In this document: positions 16,459-24,808 of the stretch, in pieces
How the letters are laid out: each line of letters begins with the position of its first letter
Numbering within the stretch: the first letter of the stretch is position 1
DNA from: Bacteroidota bacterium
GTDB taxonomy: Bacteria > Bacteroidota > Bacteroidia > 2-12-FULL-35-15
DNA: 64,000 nt
Assembly (NCBI GenBank): GCA_947504725.1
Contig: CANNHN010000001.1
Location: 372,001-436,000, forward strand
Direction: 5' to 3'
Notes under the pieces: model-generated
Database searches by the model: none
The model's input: only the letters and a program-made list of their open reading frames with translations
What the model was told of the DNA's origin: nothing
Translations under genes and position numbers: made by a program

Positions 16459-16950
16459 ATGGCTTCATTTGATATAGTAAACAAAGTAGATGTTCAATTG
16501 CTCGACAATGCAATTAACGTAGCACGTAAGGAAATTGTTAATCGTTTTGATTTTCATGGCTCCAAGAGTGAAATCACACTTGATAAAAAAGGCATGGCCA
16601 TAAATATCACTACTGAAAATGATATGCGTTTAGAATCAATTATTGATATTATCCGTCAACGCATGATCAAACAACACTTGAATCCGCTCTGTCTGGATTC
16701 TAGCAAGGAACATTATGCTTCTGGAATGATGATAAAAAAAGACATTAAAGTGAAAGAAGGTGTTGACAAAGACGTTGCGCGGAAAATTGTTAAAGACATA
16801 AAAGACTCCAAATTAAAAGTACAAGCACAAATGCAAGATGATCAGGTGCGAGTTTCCGGAAAGAAATTAGATGATCTGCAAGCGGTTATTTCTCTAATGC
16901 GACAAGGCAGTTATGATTTGCCTTTGCAGTTCATAAATATGAAGTCCTAA
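16459..16950 (+). CDS. yajQ: YajQ family nucleotide-binding protein (UPF0234)
   Basis: 163 residues matching YajQ end to end: MASFDIVNKVD start, RFDFHGSKSEI, and a C-terminal LMRQGSYDLPLQFINMK. Homologues bind tRNA or cyclic di-GMP; which ligand applies here is unknown. Its stop overlaps the last base pairs of the convergent repeat-protein gene (16947-16950). Confidence 0.95.
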   Translation: MASFDIVNKVDVQLLDNAINVARKEIVNRFDFHGSKSEITLDKKGMAINITTENDMRLESIIDIIRQRMIKQHLNPLCLDSSKEHYASGMMIKKDIKVKEGVDKDVARKIVKDIKDSKLKVQAQMQDDQVRVSGKKLDDLQAVISLMRQGSYDLPLQFINMKS

Positions 16951-17375
16951 TTCAATCTAAAAAAGAAAAAGAAAACTGCGGCTGCGGCATCCGTATGATT
17001 TTTCACATCTTTAGCATATCCAATAGTTGAGTAATTACTATTTTGCATCGTTCCATCCGATTTGATATATCCAATAGTAGAATAATTTTCGTTTTGAATT
17101 GTACCATCCGTCTTAATGTACCCTATTGTAGAATAATTTGAATTCTGAATAGTTCCATCATCTTTGATATAACCTACAGTTGAATAATTCCCATTTTGTA
17201 CAGTTCCATCCGTTTTAATATATCCAATAGTTGAATAGTTTTCATTCTGTACTGTTCCATCATCTTTGATGTAACCAACTGTTGAATAATTGCTGTTTTG
17301 AATTGTTTGAGATATTGCTTGATTTGAAATCAATGCAAAGCAAACGAAAGTGATGGAAGAGATTAGTTTTTTCAT
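16947..17375 (-). CDS. Secreted small protein with six 17-residue tandem repeats
   Basis: 142 residues from the ATG at 17375, where a clean signal peptide begins (MKKLISSITFVCF...ISQ). The mature part is six copies of a 17-residue unit with consensus QNSNYSTIGYIKtDGTI, then a short tail of Asp-Ala-Ala-Ala-Ala and five Phe. The regular GYI..DGT strands suggest a small beta-repeat fold, similar in style to Bacteroidota proteins called five-fold beta-flower. Function unknown. It is read in the same direction as the membrane-gene run, 28 bases after dgkA. Confidence 0.8.
   Translation of the reverse strand: MKKLISSITFVCFALISNQAISQTIQNSNYSTVGYIKDDGTVQNENYSTIGYIKTDGTVQNGNYSTVGYIKDDGTIQNSNYSTIGYIKTDGTIQNENYSTIGYIKSDGTMQNSNYSTIGYAKDVKNHTDAAAAVFFFFFRLN
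17010..17308. repeat. 51-bp tandem repeat, about six copies
   Basis: The motif CAATAGT(T/A)GA(A/G)TAAT recurs every 51 bases from 17021. Units 1 and 3 of the protein carry KDDG and STVG, units 2 and 4 carry KTDG and STIG. This indicates duplication of a two-unit (102 bp) block after the original 51-bp unit. Confidence 0.85.
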
Positions 17376-17403: not shown

Positions 17404-17775
17404 TTAAAACAATTTCGGCAAAAACACAATCAAACCAATCAAAACAGCACATAATGCCGCGATCAAAACAGCTCCTGCTGATACATCTTTGACTTTTTTT
17501 GCAGTTGGATGAAATTGTGGTGAAACTATATCTGTTAAAAATTCGATGGCGGTATTAAACATTTCTGCTGCAAAAACAAATCCAATTGATATAATCAACC
17601 AACACCATTCCGTTTTATCAACTTTCAAAACAAATCCTAATACAATTACAACTATTGTTGCCAAGAGGTGAATCCATGCATTGTGCTGTGTTTTAAAGAA
17701 GGTAATCAAACCTTGAATAGCAAATCCAAAACTCAGAATTCGATCTCCTAGGCTAAAAGATTTATTTGTTTTCAT
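17404..17775 (-). CDS. dgkA: Diacylglycerol/undecaprenol kinase, DgkA family
   Basis: 123 residues, three membrane segments. The catalytic signature EMFNTAIE (about residues 70-77) and KVKDVSAGAVL (about 95-105) are intact. The family phosphorylates diacylglycerol (Gram-negatives) or undecaprenol. Its start overlaps the end of the DUF1361 gene by 14 bases, so it belongs to the membrane-gene operon. Confidence 0.92.
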   Translation of the reverse strand: MKTNKSFSLGDRILSFGFAIQGLITFFKTQHNAWIHLLATIVVIVLGFVLKVDKTEWCWLIISIGFVFAAEMFNTAIEFLTDIVSPQFHPTAKKVKDVSAGAVLIAALCAVLIGLIVFLPKLF

Positions 17776-18415
17776 AGTTCTTGTGATTTATCATTGTGTT
17801 CAATGTCCAGTAACTTACCATCAAAAATACAGAAAAGAAAAAGGTAACTCCAACCATTCTAGTATTATTCATTGGGTCTAAAATCATATTAAAAATATCT
17901 GAGAACAATCTAATTGGATTGGTAATGATATCCCAGCTATTATATCTTGGGTAACGTCCTAAATAAATGCCAAAACTGCATAGCACTAATAATCCAGCAA
18001 TGAATAAATTGACAATGCCTACTGACAAACGAGTTCGTAATACTTTTTGAATTTCCATTAAGGAAGAATATCCTAATAATAATCCATTCCACGCGAATGA
18101 AAGAATTAATACTAAATCAAACCAAATTGGAATTTCGGAGCGTAAACGTAGATGAAATAAGTCAGTTAAGATGTAAGGAGAATTAGGAAAAAATAATAAC
18201 CATCCAGAAAACACAGCTAATTTTTTTATTCTAGACGTTCCATTATTATTCATTTCAGAAAGTGCAAAAGCTAAAAGAAAAGGAATCCATGCCAAAAATA
18301 AATTCCATGTAAGGAAAACAAACATCAAGCTTCCGCTCCACTGAATTCTAAAGTATAATAAGATTACACTTAAAGCAGACGAAACTGCCATTACTTTAAT
18401 TAATCGTTTGTTCAT
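17762..18415 (-). CDS. DUF1361 membrane protein
   Basis: 217 residues with about six membrane segments. Family features: FLTWNLFLAWIPF (about residue 35), FFPNSPYILTDLFHL (about 75) and GIYLGRYPRYNSWD (about 150). No reaction is known for DUF1361. Five bases separate it from the upstream membrane gene and it overlaps dgkA, so co-expression is likely. Confidence 0.88.
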   Translation of the reverse strand: MNKRLIKVMAVSSALSVILLYFRIQWSGSLMFVFLTWNLFLAWIPFLLAFALSEMNNNGTSRIKKLAVFSGWLLFFPNSPYILTDLFHLRLRSEIPIWFDLVLILSFAWNGLLLGYSSLMEIQKVLRTRLSVGIVNLFIAGLLVLCSFGIYLGRYPRYNSWDIITNPIRLFSDIFNMILDPMNNTRMVGVTFFFSVFLMVSYWTLNTMINHKNYENK

Positions 18416-18419
18416 GTTA

Positions 18420-19130
18420 TTATGCTTTTTTTACTCGTTTATAAATCATCCATATTACCAAACATATTATTCCTTGCCCAATCCAAAACAGTGACCAATT
18501 AAAATGTTGTGGAATATAATTTTTTACTTCATCAAACATGTTTTTGTTACTAGATAAGGTCCAAACACCTCTATCTACACCGTAACTAGAAACGTAAATG
18601 ATATAATCCCACATAAAAGAAACCATACAAGTGATACTACCAAAAATAAAGAACATCCATTCCATAAATGTAAAGTAGACATACTTGCCTTTGTCTTGAA
18701 AATATAAAACAACAAAGGTTAGAATTATCATTGACAAAGAAACAATACAAGGAGCAATAACAGGCCCAACCCAAGGAACTGGAACTAAGAATAAAATATC
18801 CCATGTAAATAAGGATTCAGGCCAATTGAGCAATACTTTTAAAAAAACATAATAAAAGATGTCCCAGATTGCAAAGCTGTAAAGAAAAAATACAAATCGT
18901 TGAATCAAATTTTTTCCAGCCATCACCCCTGCTCCAATCAACATAATTATGGTTGCTATTTCTCTGAAGAATTCTGTTGTTGCAATGTCTCGTGGTACAG
19001 CCACTAGTGGAAATTTAAATCCTTCGGGATAATAAAGTTCTCGCAAATACACAACAACTGATGTTTCCAAAAATCCCATGGAAATACTAAATAATGTTAA
19101 CCATAGAATTGTTTTAATTATTGGTTTCAT
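18420..19130 (-). CDS. Unrecognised polytopic membrane protein
   Basis: 236 residues with about seven hydrophobic segments separated by short loops (for example near residues 5-27, 52-66, 75-95, 110-125, 130-150, 158-178 and 213-230). No family recognised. The start overlaps the stop of the DUF4173-like/LRR gene (ATGA-type, 19127-19130), tight coupling that points to a shared process with its neighbours. Confidence 0.7.
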   Translation of the reverse strand: MKPIIKTILWLTLFSISMGFLETSVVVYLRELYYPEGFKFPLVAVPRDIATTEFFREIATIIMLIGAGVMAGKNLIQRFVFFLYSFAIWDIFYYVFLKVLLNWPESLFTWDILFLVPVPWVGPVIAPCIVSLSMIILTFVVLYFQDKGKYVYFTFMEWMFFIFGSITCMVSFMWDYIIYVSSYGVDRGVWTLSSNKNMFDEVKNYIPQHFNWSLFWIGQGIICLVIWMIYKRVKKA

Positions 19131-21073
19131 CTTCCTTCGTATGTATTTACCACATTAGCTACAATTTTAACGTTCGGAAAAGTTTTTTGTAATGAATCTA
19201 GCCCTTCAGATGTGATACTTCCAATGGTTAACTTCTTTAATTTTTTCAAAGCTAAAAGAGGTGAGTAAGCTTTTGGGCGATTATTCTCTCCAGAAATATC
19301 TAAAACTTCTACATTTCTTAATCTTGCAATTGGATATAAATCAACAATATTATTCCCGCTTAAATCCAATTCTCTCAGAGATGCAAATGCAGGCATTTTA
19401 TCAAGAGTATCAATTTGGGTATTTCTTAATGTTAGGGACTCTAGTTTTGGAAATTGCTTTAATTCAGACAAATCATTTAAACTATTATTAAGAATTATCA
19501 ATGAACGTAAATTATCAAAAGCTCTCAAATACTTAAGTGACTCAAAATAATTGTATTGAAACTCCAGCGAATCTACTTCATCCTTAATAGCTAAAATATC
19601 ATTATACGTTCTTGTTTTTTCAATACAATTAGATTGCCACTCCATTTGCTGATAATCTTTCATGAAATTCAACAACTTGTTTGACAAACCTGATTTAAAG
19701 TTGTAATAGTAAGTTCCTCGAGAAAAATTATAATAATCACGGGCTTCATAATCATCACTGTTTGCGACTGAATCAGGTAGTGTTAAAAGTTGAGGAAGGT
19801 TTTTATAACTTAGATCGAGTAAAAGATATTTTTCTAGTTTTTTATGTTCAACAGTATGCTTATTAATATTAAAGTCTGTGATGATAATATCCCAATTAAA
19901 AAAACATGTAAATACTATAAAATAATAATAGACTGCAGCATTTACTCTAAATAAATACCAGTTCGTTTTAAGTTTTACAACTTTAATGAATGTAGTAGCT
20001 AAGCCAATCAATGCAAGAATTAAATAAACATAAACACCGATTTTTTTATACGAAATCCCAGACTCATCTATGTATAAGTTGTTTCGATAAGCAGTTGAGA
20101 ATATCATAAAGGCATTTTGCAAAATCCAAATTAATGCCATTATTTTCAACCACTTGTTTTGCTTATGGAAATTCAATTCTCCTCGGAAATAGAATAAAAT
20201 GATACAGATTGCAACAACTATTGATGTAATAAGCGTTCCTATTCCATCGTGAACAAAGCCTTTATGATTAACTCCTTCCGGTAATTTTCCGTTAAATAAA
20301 AAATAGTTGATATCGAGCACATTTAAAATGAGCAACAAAGTGTTCAGCATTACAAACAAAATAATTCCTGAAAGATTTTCATTGTCAATTCGCATCAAAC
20401 CATTCAAAAAGTTTTTTCGTGAAGCTATCTCTAGAGTAAGATTAAGAGAAACCTTTTCATCTAACTCATAAACACTCGGCATAATTTTGTTGTGGAAAAA
20501 TCCGTATAACAAAAACAATCCTCCCAATGTAAAAAACAGCCAACCTATGGAGATGAAATCCAGGTTGATATCTTTTGTGAAATCATAAAATAACGGATTT
20601 GATGTTTGATAAAAGAAGAAAAATAAAACTGCTATCAAAAAAGGGATTACAAAAATAAACAGTTTTACATAAAAAGGGCGTTGATACACACCTGTTATTT
20701 GATTTTTTTTGCGATTTACCCAATCTATGAACATATAAACACAAGATGTGCTGACAGAACAAATTGTTAAGAAAATGCTTGTTAAAAATGATGTTTTGGG
20801 GTTTATGCTTAAGGCAGAAATAATAAACAATGAAAACATGTTTGCCCAAATTGCAAGTGCGCTTCCATACATGTAAATAAAAAATGAAGAAGCGATTGAT
20901 CCGAAAGCAACCGATAACCATACTTTATTTTTAATTAAATCGAATTGCCTAAAGGCAAGAAGTCCGACTATCAAAATATTAAAAATTAAAAAGTTTATTC
21001 CTGCATTTTGGTCGTAAAATAATGCGCCATATACAAAAACGGATATAAGTATTGCCCAGTCATTTTTTTTCAT
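19127..21073 (-). CDS. DUF4153/DUF4173-like membrane protein fused to leucine-rich repeats
   Basis: 648 residues. Residues 1 to about 400 are a polytopic membrane region of about 11 segments. It ends with the NWYLFRVNAAVYYYFIVFTCFFNWD stretch typical of DUF4153/DUF4173 (shown in parts: NWYLFRVNAAVYY, then NWDIII). Residues about 500-635 are five or six leucine-rich repeats (LRSLIILNNSL, LESLTLRNTQI, LRELDLSGNNI, VEVLDISGENN, LKKLTIGSI). This joins an integral membrane domain to a protein-binding solenoid. Such membrane domains often lie near small winged-helix regulators, as here. The partner is unknown. Confidence 0.8.
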   Translation of the reverse strand: MKKNDWAILISVFVYGALFYDQNAGINFLIFNILIVGLLAFRQFDLIKNKVWLSVAFGSIASSFFIYMYGSALAIWANMFSLFIISALSINPKTSFLTSIFLTICSVSTSCVYMFIDWVNRKKNQITGVYQRPFYVKLFIFVIPFLIAVLFFFFYQTSNPLFYDFTKDINLDFISIGWLFFTLGGLFLLYGFFHNKIMPSVYELDEKVSLNLTLEIASRKNFLNGLMRIDNENLSGIILFVMLNTLLLILNVLDINYFLFNGKLPEGVNHKGFVHDGIGTLITSIVVAICIILFYFRGELNFHKQNKWLKIMALIWILQNAFMIFSTAYRNNLYIDESGISYKKIGVYVYLILALIGLATTFIKVVKLKTNWYLFRVNAAVYYYFIVFTCFFNWDIIITDFNINKHTVEHKKLEKYLLLDLSYKNLPQLLTLPDSVANSDDYEARDYYNFSRGTYYYNFKSGLSNKLLNFMKDYQQMEWQSNCIEKTRTYNDILAIKDEVDSLEFQYNYFESLKYLRAFDNLRSLIILNNSLNDLSELKQFPKLESLTLRNTQIDTLDKMPAFASLRELDLSGNNIVDLYPIARLRNVEVLDISGENNRPKAYSPLLALKKLKKLTIGSITSEGLDSLQKTFPNVKIVANVVNTYEGR

Positions 21074-21121
21074 TGTTGTTTAGTTTTAGAGTTTATAATT
21101 TTAGCCTATTAGGAACGCTTA

Positions 21122-21610
21122 TTAAGCGAATTTATTTTGTTGTTCAAGTATCCGAATGTTTTTATAAGTAATGTATAATGGAATAAAGCCAAATACACCA
21201 AAAGAGCAATCAATCATTTGCCAAAAAAATGGAATTTGTCGGATTGGACCAGCAATCAAAGCCAAAGGGAAAACCATAATACAAGCAATCATGCCGAATT
21301 GAATAACCCAAATATTTTTTATGGGATCTAAATACGGACCAATAAAAGCAGTTGCAATAACAATATGTGCAAAGGCTAACCAATCTGTTCCATAAGAAAG
21401 ATGCGGATAGTTTAAGTTCACTGTTTTTACTTCATTGTAAATAGTCGTTATCCACGTCTGCATAAATTCAGGAAAGTATGAACTGTGCCTTGTCAAAAAA
21501 GAAAGTTCAGTTTCAATTGGAAATGCCGTCACACCGCTTAATACCAACAATACTATGAATAAAATAATCCAGGTTTTGATTTTTCTATTTAATTGAGTGT
21601 TTGTTAACAT
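21122..21610 (-). CDS. Unrecognised four-segment membrane protein
   Basis: 162 residues, membrane segments near 12-32, 75-97, 101-122 and 128-146; Arg/Lys at both ends. No family recognised. The start overlaps the Coq4-like gene by 7 bases and the next gene follows after 48 bases, so it sits inside the membrane operon. Confidence 0.7.
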   Translation of the reverse strand: MLTNTQLNRKIKTWIILFIVLLVLSGVTAFPIETELSFLTRHSSYFPEFMQTWITTIYNEVKTVNLNYPHLSYGTDWLAFAHIVIATAFIGPYLDPIKNIWVIQFGMIACIMVFPLALIAGPIRQIPFFWQMIDCSFGVFGFIPLYITYKNIRILEQQNKFA

Positions 21611-22080
21611 GGTTTATAAATTTTACGTAATTCGTTTGTTTTTAAAAGTACTATTACATTATAATCAATCTCTTCAAAAGGCTTGCCTTTTTTGCCTTTC
21701 TGATAATCTAATTTGAATTGTTTCCAATATTCAGGCATAAGAAAAAAAGTAATGAAACAAGTGGAAAGAACAGGGATTGAATAATGTCTGTTTCCTAAAA
21801 AGTAAAATTGCATTCTCGCCTCCCCTGCTTCATCCATTTCGTATTGAAGAATAATATGTTTACAAACGTGCTGTTCGTAGTTTAGCAAAAGTTTAAAATT
21901 CATCTTATTTAAATAGATTGCAAGATCTTTCCCTAACGTTCCTTCATCCAGTGCTAATAAGTCGTTCATCGCAAAATTAAATTTTGGTTTTGTTCGAAAT
22001 TTTCCAATTAGCGGCAAAGCAATTTTATGAGTCAAGAACTCTAATACTTTTGATCGAACATATTTTATTTTTTTTATCAT
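21604..22080 (-). CDS. Coq4-like protein with an altered metal motif
   Basis: 158 residues, mostly soluble. The pattern EGTLGKDLA (about residue 46), then H-V-C-K-H-x11-E (about residues 70-87) and RMQFYFLGNRHY resembles Coq4, whose metal motif is HDxxH-x11-E. Spacing of the two His and the Glu is exact, but the Asp is Val. Coq4 acts in ubiquinone synthesis, whereas Bacteroidota normally make menaquinone, so another lipid-binding role is likely. The gene is embedded in a membrane-protein operon, 12 bases from the upstream gene. Confidence 0.62.
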   Translation of the reverse strand: MIKKIKYVRSKVLEFLTHKIALPLIGKFRTKPKFNFAMNDLLALDEGTLGKDLAIYLNKMNFKLLLNYEQHVCKHIILQYEMDEAGEARMQFYFLGNRHYSIPVLSTCFITFFLMPEYWKQFKLDYQKGKKGKPFEEIDYNVIVLLKTNELRKIYKPC

Positions 22081-22092
22081 GTTTCTATATTT

Positions 22093-22803
22093 TTAACGCG
22101 AAAAAACAAAACCAACCGAATGTGTGAATACTTTTACAATTGCATCAATTTCTTGCCCGCAGCCAAACGCTAAAAGAATTTGAATACTAATTAAAGGAAT
22201 GAGCATTGCTCCGTAAATAACTAAGCGAGTATAAATTTGTGCTTGAATAATTTGAACTGGAATCGCTACAAATCCAAGTTCTTGACGATATGGAAGAGCG
22301 TCATCATAATTGAATTCTGTTTTATTAAAAAATAAAAATTCTCTTATTAATAAAAACAATGCAAAGACTGGAGAGAGTAATTCGAATCCATAAATAGGAT
22401 AAATCAACCCCAATGGTATAAATGTTAAAAAATGAATACTTGTAAAAAGACAAATTACTATCCCTTGTAGTAGACCAACAGAAACAAGTATTCTAAAAAT
22501 AGGATTCGATATTTTCGAAGAAAAACGTGCTAACCAAAAAGATGCAGAGCCAATAATTACGAATAAAATTACTGTAAGAACATGTTGTTTTGCAAAAGGC
22601 GTTTCATGACCAAATGAATCAAAACGCATAAACCCTATAGCTGGTCCAACAACAGTATAAACTACTTCAGTAAACGTTATCATTAATTTAGAAAACGAAT
22701 CTTTTGGTCTTCTTTCTCCAGATTTTATTGTCTTAAATAACGTTATAAGAAAGAATATTCCGTATGCTGCATAAAGAATTCCAAACATGAAAAATACTGC
22801 CAT
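22093..22803 (-). CDS. Unrecognised polytopic membrane protein, first gene of the membrane operon
   Basis: 236 residues with about six membrane segments and a cytoplasmic-looking loop (residues 26-37, RRPKDSF). There is a conserved-looking MRFDSFGHETPFAKQHVLT segment between segments 1-2 and 3. Family not certain. Its upstream region carries the palindrome AAAGTACTTT (22826-22835), which is also found before the membrane gene at 23834. Confidence 0.7.
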   Translation of the reverse strand: MAVFFMFGILYAAYGIFFLITLFKTIKSGERRPKDSFSKLMITFTEVVYTVVGPAIGFMRFDSFGHETPFAKQHVLTVILFVIIGSASFWLARFSSKISNPIFRILVSVGLLQGIVICLFTSIHFLTFIPLGLIYPIYGFELLSPVFALFLLIREFLFFNKTEFNYDDALPYRQELGFVAIPVQIIQAQIYTRLVIYGAMLIPLISIQILLAFGCGQEIDAIVKVFTHSVGFVFSR

Positions 22804-22825
22804 AGTTATAAAATTGAATCAGTTA

Positions 22826-22835
22826 AAAGTACTTT
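22826..22835. promoter_or_regulatory. Candidate operator palindrome, copy 1
   Basis: AAAGTACTTT is a perfect 10-base palindrome inside the 14-mer TTAAAAGTACTTTG, located 23 bases before the ATG at 22803. The same 14-mer occurs before the gene at 23834. The winged-helix regulator gene lies between the two. Confidence 0.5.
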
Positions 22836-22864
22836 GAGTTTCAAGGTGTATGTATAAAAAAATA

Positions 22865-23164
22865 TCAGTCTCTGTTTTTTAAAAGTTTTTCAAGTGCATC
22901 CAAATGTTCATTAAAAGCTTTCTTACCAAGTTTAGTGACAGCATATGTTGTGTTCGGTTTCTTACCAACAAATTGTTTCTTCACTTCAACATATTCAATT
23001 TTTTCCAACGCAGAAATATGGGAAGCTAAATTACCATCGGTAATATCCAGCATTTCTTTTAGAGTACTAAACTCAACCCAATCGTTTACCATCAATACAG
23101 ACATGATGCCCAAACGAATTCGATTTTCAAAAGCTTTATTAAGATATTGTATATAATTTTTCAA
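22865..23164 (-). CDS. Winged-helix transcriptional regulator (HTH_34 type)
   Basis: 99 residues. A single winged helix: EFSTLKEMLDITDGNLASHISALEKI contains the recognition helix (about residues 30-55; shown here as FSTLKEMLD and NLASHISALE), followed by the wing KKQFVGKKPNTTYAVT. The family controls neighbouring membrane-protein genes in many bacteria; no ligand domain is visible. No ATG is usable, so the start is TTG at 23164. It lies between two membrane-protein genes, 61 bases before one and 43 bases after the other. Confidence 0.88.
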   Translation of the reverse strand: MKNYIQYLNKAFENRIRLGIMSVLMVNDWVEFSTLKEMLDITDGNLASHISALEKIEYVEVKKQFVGKKPNTTYAVTKLGKKAFNEHLDALEKLLKNRD

Positions 23165-23207
23165 GGTTACAGATAACTAATCAAAATGAAATTACTAGAT
23201 GTATATA

Positions 23208-23834
23208 TTATTTTATCTCGTATTTAAAATACATAACAGCACCATAAATAATATGCAACACACCAAAACCAAAAGCCCAAAAATACAAACCATAGCCAAT
23301 AAAAAGGGAAGCAGCTAAACCTAAAATAATTTCTAAAATTCCTAAATAACGAATATCATTAAACGTATATTTACTTGCATTGATTAAAGCTAGTCCGTAA
23401 AATATTAAAGTTGCTGGAGCAACAAGACCAATAATTCCGTGAAAAAGAAGTACTAAACAAAATAAACCACCTGCAACTAATGGAATCCCTAAGTTGATCA
23501 ACAAACGTTTTGCAGAATTATCCCAAACAGAAATTCCTTTTCTTTTAGAATTACGAATTGTTAAAAGTGTCCCAACTAATAAAGAAGCAATTAAAACGGC
23601 AGAAGCTATCTCAATAAAATATACAGTTACTTCAACAATATCTTCACCACTAACACCTCTTGTATTTTGGTAACTCGATGCTCTCAGTTTTGTGTACGCC
23701 AAATACGCTCCTATTAAAGCAAATATTCCAGCAAACACTCCCGATAAACCACTTAATGAAATGCAACGAGACGAACGCTCCATCATAGAACGAATGTCTG
23801 TTATTGCTTGTAAATGTTCTTTTTGTTCTGTCAT
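23208..23834 (-). CDS. Unrecognised membrane protein paired with the winged-helix regulator
   Basis: 208 residues from the ATG at 23834; the frame extends 11 codons further but that part lies over the operator. About six membrane segments follow a charged N-terminus (EHLQAITDIRSMMERSSRCI). Pairs of such a membrane protein and a small winged-helix regulator recur in Bacteroidota. Function unknown; sensing or modulating the regulator is a possible role. First gene of the minus-strand run. Confidence 0.75.
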   Translation of the reverse strand: MTEQKEHLQAITDIRSMMERSSRCISLSGLSGVFAGIFALIGAYLAYTKLRASSYQNTRGVSGEDIVEVTVYFIEIASAVLIASLLVGTLLTIRNSKRKGISVWDNSAKRLLINLGIPLVAGGLFCLVLLFHGIIGLVAPATLIFYGLALINASKYTFNDIRYLGILEIILGLAASLFIGYGLYFWAFGFGVLHIIYGAVMYFKYEIK

Positions 23835-23848
23835 TTTAGAATAGATTA

Positions 23849-23872
23849 AAAGTACTTTGTACTGCAAAGTTA
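23849..23872 (-). promoter_or_regulatory. Promoter with candidate operator palindrome, copy 2
   Basis: TAACTTTG (minus strand, 23865-23872) matches the -7 consensus. The palindrome AAAGTACTTT (23849-23858) lies just downstream over the expected transcription start, a repressor-like position. A second dyad, ACTTTG/CAAAGT (23854-23859 and 23865-23870), overlaps the -7 box. Confidence 0.5.
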
Positions 23873-24010: not shown

Positions 24011-24808
24011 ATGATTCAGTTGTTTACATCCGCTTTTATTGCTGTCCGATGGATTGATGTGCTGGATATTGTTTTAGTTGCTGTTCTTATATACCAACTC
24101 TACTATTTGGTAAAAGGGACTGTTGCCATAAACATCTTTGTCGGTATAATGCTCATTTACACGCTTTGGATTCTAGTTAGAGCGGCAGACATGCAATTAT
24201 TTGGCAGTATACTTAGTAAGTTTATTGATGTTGGTTTCATTGCTTTGTTGATTGTATTTCAGCCCGAACTTAGAAGATTCTTATTATTTATTGGAACTTC
24301 TGATGTTTTTACAAAAGGCAAAATCGGGAAAGGGTTGTTTGACTTCAAATGGAATGTGAGCCCTACAAAAACATTAGACATAAATTCAATAGTGAAATCC
24401 TGTAAAAACATGAGTGAAAATAAAACAGGGGCAATAATTATTCTTACAAAGGAAAACGATTTGAAATTTTATGCAAATACAGGTGATAGTATTGATGCAA
24501 AAGTTTCTGTAAGAATGATTGAAAGTGTTTTTTATAAAAACTCTCCACTACATGATGGAGCAATTATTATTTCTAACAACATTATTGTTGCAGCACGATG
24601 TGTTTTACCTGTTACTGAACACGCTGATTTTCCAGCACATTTAGGAATGCGTCATAGAGCTGCTGTTGGAATTACTGAAAACACCGACTCAATTGCAATT
24701 GTTGTTTCTGAACAAACTGGAGAAATATCTTATTCTATTGCTGGGGAATTAAAACATGCCGTTTCACACGAGCGATTGAGGGAATTATTGGAAAAAGAAT
24801 TTAACTAG
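24011..24808 (+). CDS. cdaA: Diadenylate cyclase CdaA
   Basis: 265 residues: three N-terminal membrane segments (about residues 15-80) then a DAC domain with the catalytic DGAIII (near residue 181) and RHRAAVG (near 211) motifs. It makes cyclic di-AMP from two ATP. Its usual Gram-positive partner cdaR is not adjacent. A TATACTTG-like box ends about 5 bases before the ATG. Confidence 0.95.
   Translation: MIQLFTSAFIAVRWIDVLDIVLVAVLIYQLYYLVKGTVAINIFVGIMLIYTLWILVRAADMQLFGSILSKFIDVGFIALLIVFQPELRRFLLFIGTSDVFTKGKIGKGLFDFKWNVSPTKTLDINSIVKSCKNMSENKTGAIIILTKENDLKFYANTGDSIDAKVSVRMIESVFYKNSPLHDGAIIISNNIIVAARCVLPVTEHADFPAHLGMRHRAAVGITENTDSIAIVVSEQTGEISYSIAGELKHAVSHERLRELLEKEFN

Follow-up and report, generated by a model that had tools for sequence, protein, structure and literature searches.

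A conserved gene pair for a membrane protein and an HTH_34 regulator, with an operator-defined regulon, in Bacteroidota

Why is a small winged-helix regulator encoded within a run of genes for membrane proteins, and what might it control? The question is raised by a minus-strand locus at positions 17404 to 23872 of the window, by which we mean the whole 64,000-nucleotide stretch of Bacteroidota DNA analyzed here. The initial annotation had described nine genes on one strand, mainly for polytopic proteins and many of them overlapping or within 15 bases of each other, with the regulator among them and the same palindrome in front of two transcription units. Our reading of the open reading frames (ORFs) confirmed nine genes, mostly for membrane proteins, which we named A to I. 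The features of the locus are as follows.

Gene A, 23208..23834, minus strand: 208 aa, six-helix membrane protein with an N-terminal helix, no Pfam family above the cut-off
Gene B, 22865..23164, minus strand: 99 aa, HTH_34 winged-helix regulator (PF13601, 4e-31)
Gene C, 22093..22803, minus strand: 236 aa, DUF6688 membrane protein (4e-11, 43 bits against a cut-off of 26)
Gene D, 21604..22080, minus strand: 158 aa, Coq4-like protein
Gene E, 21122..21610, minus strand: 162 aa, membrane protein, no family above the cut-off
Gene F, 19127..21073, minus strand: 648 aa, DUF4153 membrane part followed by C-terminal leucine-rich repeats
Gene G, 18420..19130, minus strand: 236 aa, membrane protein, no known family
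Gene H, 17762..18415, minus strand: 217 aa, DUF1361 membrane protein (160 bits against a cut-off of 25)
Gene I, 17404..17775, minus strand: 123 aa, DgkA-type lipid kinase family (PF01219, DAGK_prokar, 125 bits against a cut-off of 22.3)
Gene J, 16947..17375, minus strand: 142 aa, 5-fold beta-flower protein (PF21785, 8e-36)
Operator 1, 23849..23872, minus strand: TAACTTTGCAGTACAAAGTACTTT, before A, overlapping a -7 box, perfect match to the consensus
Operator 2, 22826..22849, minus strand: ACACCTTGAAACTCAAAGTACTTT, before C, one change in the -7 half, as read from the sequence

For gene A, an ATG was taken as the start; the listed ORF of 219 aa begins at an upstream TTG. The intergenic distances from A to I are 43, 61, 12, -7, 48, -4, 4, and -14 bases, and five of the eight neighboring pairs overlap or lie no more than 15 bases apart. 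Hydropathy analysis predicted 5, 0, 5, 0, 2, 8, 6, 5, and 3 membrane segments for A to I, leaving only B and D without any. The extent proposed initially was probably one gene too short, since gene J lies 28 bases downstream of the DgkA gene I on the same strand. Its product has a hydrophobic N-terminus, and a J-type gene directly follows DgkA on the same strand in the relatives L042, L049, L054, and L055. Thus, J is probably the last gene of an operon running to 16947. The locus is flanked upstream by a divergent gene (24011-24808), which we take to be dacA, and downstream by a gene (16459-16950) that is presumably yajQ-like. No RNA families were found in the region, and a search for sigma-70 type promoters was uninformative (36 found, 38 expected).

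Most of the family assignments made at first sight stood. DUF1361 and DgkA were recovered for H and I by Pfam matches. The Coq4-like nature of D was upheld by its family profile, which matched the Coq4-type protein 3msq at 2e-5; D alone matched Pfam Coq4 weakly and below the cut-off (E 0.12), and its relative L061 scored 35.7 bits against a cut-off of 22.9. By sequence, D is therefore a Coq4-superfamily protein. The Coq4 metal motif is HDxxH-x11-E, which nearly all relatives of D retain; D itself lacks the aspartate (HVCKH-x11-E, i.e., HVxxH), so that its activity may have been altered or lost. Gene F had been called a fusion of a DUF4173-like part with leucine-rich repeats. The repeats were borne out (LRR_4, 48 bits), with their fold visible in the predicted model, but the membrane part is DUF4153 (PF13687, 3e-33, 116 bits, cut-off 27) and not DUF4173. 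Fold comparison of F gave matches only in the leucine-rich repeats and barely probed the DUF4153 part.

Do these genes belong together? Within the genus they do: about 19 species share the order A-B-(C-D)-E-F-G-H-I without scattering, often with the same flanking genes. Genes C and D are optional and are replaced by other genes in some species. Of 19 genomes with a B orthologue, 17 carry gene G, versus 1 of 16 without (p = 6e-7), and 15 carry gene H, versus 0 of 16 (p = 2e-6). Since the presence of G and H tracks the B orthologue, the cluster appears to be gained or lost largely as a unit. In some species, C or D is replaced by a gene for a ferritin-like protein that may carry a membrane tail (L053, 7603-8379, and 14 other loci).

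Across the phylum, the neighborhood as a whole was not conserved. A search of named genomes for A yielded at least 80 loci; these are its nearest relatives rather than a random sample. The matches listed span Pedobacter, Chitinophaga, Flavobacterium, Chryseobacterium, Runella, Pontibacter, Prolixibacter, and others, including Ignavibacteria. B lies within 600 bases behind A on the same strand in 75 of the 80 listed and follows after inserted genes in 3 more. At the remaining 2, a contig ends close behind A; thus, among the matches listed from Bacteroidota and Ignavibacteria, every one of the 78 testable loci has B behind A on the same strand. Behind the pair, the genes vary, nearly always on the strand of A. 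At 102 loci, we counted DUF4153 (61), DUF1361 (38), DgkA (35), E (32), G (24), ferritin-like proteins (15), Coq4-like proteins (14), CreD (14), and DUF6688 (10). A B12-binding radical SAM enzyme also recurs behind A-B or the operator described below (L085, L095, L131, L141, L045, and L193). The only phylum-wide constants are A-B and the operator, and the remaining genes form an interchangeable set, which argues for a regulon and against a single fixed pathway.

The palindrome AAAGTACTTT, as first noticed, precedes both A (region 23849-23858) and C (region 22826-22835). Counted by itself, CAAAGTACTTT has 8 copies in the 3.4-Mb genome versus 6 of the control. Two of the copies lie 1 kb apart at the locus, and such a pair recurs in relatives. 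The palindrome belongs to a longer site, TwACTTTG-N5-CAAAGTACTTT (also written T(A/T)ACTTTG-N5-CAAAGTACTTTT), of which operator 1 is the sole exact match in its own genome. This operator, with at least 17 of its 20 positions matching, was present before A in 118 of 125 A-B loci (conservation counts include related genomes), while shuffled sequence reached 15 at most. In most loci, a second copy follows B. The elements CTTTG, CAAAG, and CTTT are nearly invariant in the aligned sites, an outcome that motif-based choice of sites favors. Within a locus, the central bases agree between the two operators in 74 of 99 cases versus 54 of 99 shuffled pairs, which we left out as evidence because common ancestry can explain it. 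The base before AAAGT showed no clear pattern when compared with the recognition helix of B.

The placement of the operator suggests how it could act. In Flavobacterium, the -7 box recognized by sigma-A is TAnnTTTG at -12 to -5 (PMC9723704), and the left half of the operator matches this consensus. Therefore, the rest of the operator would cover approximately -4 to +12, the position of a repressor. At the sites behind B, no clear -33 element was found; judged by their sequence, these sites may be something other than plain promoters. A run of seven T residues stands right behind the stop codon of B (22857-22864), approximately six bases upstream of the -7 box, and such a run is present in most of 50 sites behind B in relatives; the usual place of a -33 element would be further upstream. 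Candidate roles of the run are a promoter element, a weak terminator, or attenuation.

The operator was then used to define the regulon in 198 genomes sampled evenly across the phylum, which are less biased than the named-genome set. The exact operator was detected at 55 sites in 34 of the 198 genomes, whereas the reversed control gave 0 sites. Gene A was present in 32 of the 34 operator genomes versus 30 of the 164 others (p = 2e-17, with related genomes counted separately), and the two operator genomes without A hold a diverged A-like gene beside B. The exact operator was absent from 30 of the 62 genomes with A in this sample. Among the loci inspected, variant sites, CAAAGCACTTT, occur in many A genomes without the exact operator, for example in Pedobacter, and a few A loci, for example in Runella, showed no recognizable operator. 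In the window's own genus, most genomes with a B orthologue have two sites, both at the locus, and most others have none. One genome of this genus (G010) has a single exact operator, before a DoxX/DUF2071 operon (L189, near 2906), and a search for an A or B orthologue there found none; an orphan site, a lost regulator, and an assembly gap are candidate readings.

Sites away from A-B give the most stringent test, and they point to the same families. At 21 of 24 such sites, the first two genes include a family found behind A-B elsewhere, versus 7 of 191 nearby ORFs as a control, which counts single ORFs, so that a factor of about two should be allowed. The families at these unlinked sites include Coq4-like proteins (in some cases accompanied by a YiiX-type enzyme), DUF4153, CreD, DoxX, a small membrane family, and exosortase N (XrtN) with its VIT-domain partner. 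XrtN and its partner stand behind the operator in three genomes (L187, L194, and L238). Among the 3 of 24 sites without a matching family, one (L191, 1985-5845) precedes an exosortase K/MSEP-CTERM set. Exosortases act in sorting proteins to the cell surface. Two such sorting systems, those of exosortase N and exosortase K, seem to share one regulator; both sets are absent from the operon in the window. In 14 loci, the target genes that follow A-B or the operator include CreD, and one unlinked operator (L254) precedes a CreD-type gene. In Stenotrophomonas, CreD maintains envelope integrity (PMC4689548). The A-B targets share CreD with the CreBC-CreD system of gammaproteobacteria, where the regulator is the two-component system CreBC; unlike that system, the window operon itself lacks CreD.

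Envelope maintenance is the common theme of the targets. The initial annotation had proposed an undescribed envelope or lipid-related system, and the first half of this proposal gained substance, with a regulated set that includes envelope genes such as CreD. The lipid half is weaker: DgkA and the Coq4-like protein make a lipid role possible. The make-up of the target list points to a possible induction of the regulon by envelope stress. No description of the A-B system was found in the open-access literature. Searches there for AAAGTACTTT returned, among the matches listed, nothing bearing on the A-B operator, those for HTH_34/PF13601 and XrtN returned none, and those for DUF4153 and DUF1361 returned nothing useful.

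What, then, can be said of the two constant proteins? B matched HTH_34 with 107 bits against a cut-off of 27, covering positions 1 to 80 of the 80-position profile, which places the winged-helix regulator noted initially in this family. The B profile matched a single solved structure, 1ub9 (E 4e-12), that of PH1061 from Pyrococcus horikoshii, likewise a small winged-helix protein but archaeal, unlike the bacterial B. Among defence families, the sole match was a weak one of Csa3 to the winged helix of B, which was rejected. For A, the predicted model has six membrane helices in addition to an N-terminal helix (mean pLDDT 85, pTM 0.79), the N-terminal helix being modelled at lower confidence than the rest. 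A fold identity was not assigned, because the best Z scores (8.9 for a designed helical filament, 8.5 for TMEM45A) are at chance level for helical bundles. The residues I14, M18, and S21 of the N-terminal helix are invariant in both A alignments, and the diverged A-like proteins of G070 and G195 show the same spacing by eye. This helix could be a docking helix for B.

A precedent for such a contact is found in Bacillus subtilis, where SdpI sequesters the repressor SdpR at the membrane on a signal (PMC1626106). There, too, a small winged-helix regulator and a polytopic membrane protein are encoded on one strand in one two-gene operon. SdpR is an autorepressor, as B may be. The likeness lies in the mechanism that we infer for A-B and not in family membership. 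The gene order is reversed, with the membrane protein first in A-B; the regulon of A-B is broad and consists of envelope genes, unlike that of SdpR-SdpI; and A lacks the SdpI domain of the Bacillus protein, which was absent when 27 members of the A family were scanned against Pfam at E 0.1.

A second pair of the same kind may exist. Paralogues of B, to which B is homologous, are encoded directly behind another membrane protein of approximately 190 to 213 aa at the loci L066 to L073, among them one in the window's own genome (L066, contig C11, 9118-10416), often with a gene for a short two-helix protein next to it. The operator motif was not found at these loci, and a search for homology between A and the membrane partner of the B paralogue gave a probability of only 11%.

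On balance, we lean toward A and B being a membrane-to-DNA signalling pair, in which B would be an operator-binding repressor and A its antagonist, with envelope genes as their regulon. B would bind TwACTTTG-N5-CAAAGTACTTT and repress its own A-B operon together with the target operons. Since the operator covers the sigma-A -7 box and the transcription start, B is most likely a repressor. A, located in the inner membrane and made from the same transcript, would sense a membrane or envelope change and hold B off the DNA, probably via its conserved N-terminal helix. This would switch on genes C to I or J here and, elsewhere, CreD, other DUF4153 proteins, Coq4-like, ferritin-like, and DoxX proteins, and the exosortase N and K sets.

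It is rather unlikely, though worth weighing, that B regulates the operator while itself sensing a cytoplasmic small molecule, a metal, or the redox state, with A as merely its most constant target. ArsR and MarR, which bind ligands directly, are among the Pfam relatives of B, and the contact between A and B is something we infer. However, with 99 aa B offers little beyond a bare winged helix for a ligand, A alone is kept with B everywhere while the other targets change, and the B paralogue is likewise paired with a membrane protein. The direction of control is a separate matter, because conservation gives no indication of it. B might be an activator that needs A or another partner, and the lack of a clear -33 element at the site behind B recalls some activated promoters; this is improbable, since the site spans the -7 box and approximately -4 to +12, where bound proteins usually block the polymerase.

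We give even less weight to the possibility that the conserved site represents an uncommon kind of promoter or is recognized by another factor, with A-B as one target. The left half of the site is indeed a -7 box, but the conserved CAAAGTACTTT extends beyond it, the site and A-B co-occur strongly in the 198 genomes, and genomes of the window's own genus without B mostly lack the site. Finally, an ordinary operon of unrelated membrane genes, with regulator and palindrome brought together by chance, would agree with the short palindrome being no commoner in the genome than its control. This explanation has almost no claim on us given the gene order kept in the genus, the phylum-wide regulon, and the control for the full operator, which gave no site at all.

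The membrane-to-DNA signalling pair that we favor can be placed in a wider frame, which we hold more tentatively and a little short of evenly balanced. A-B would be a phylum-wide membrane-stress pair and a one-component counterpart of the proteobacterial envelope-stress systems, with a regulon that includes CreD and two exosortase systems, and it would belong to a wider class of HTH_34 regulators with membrane partners. To our knowledge, envelope-stress signalling in Bacteroidota is poorly charted, and we are not aware of any regulator described for the exosortase N or the exosortase K/MSEP-CTERM systems, for both of which A-B is a candidate. The A-B regulon gives a shared context to DUF4153, DUF1361, DUF6688, and Coq4-like proteins, the last of which stand out in a phylum that mostly uses menaquinone. 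With a fixed operator, a proposed regulator, and a named list of targets, the A-B system is directly testable.
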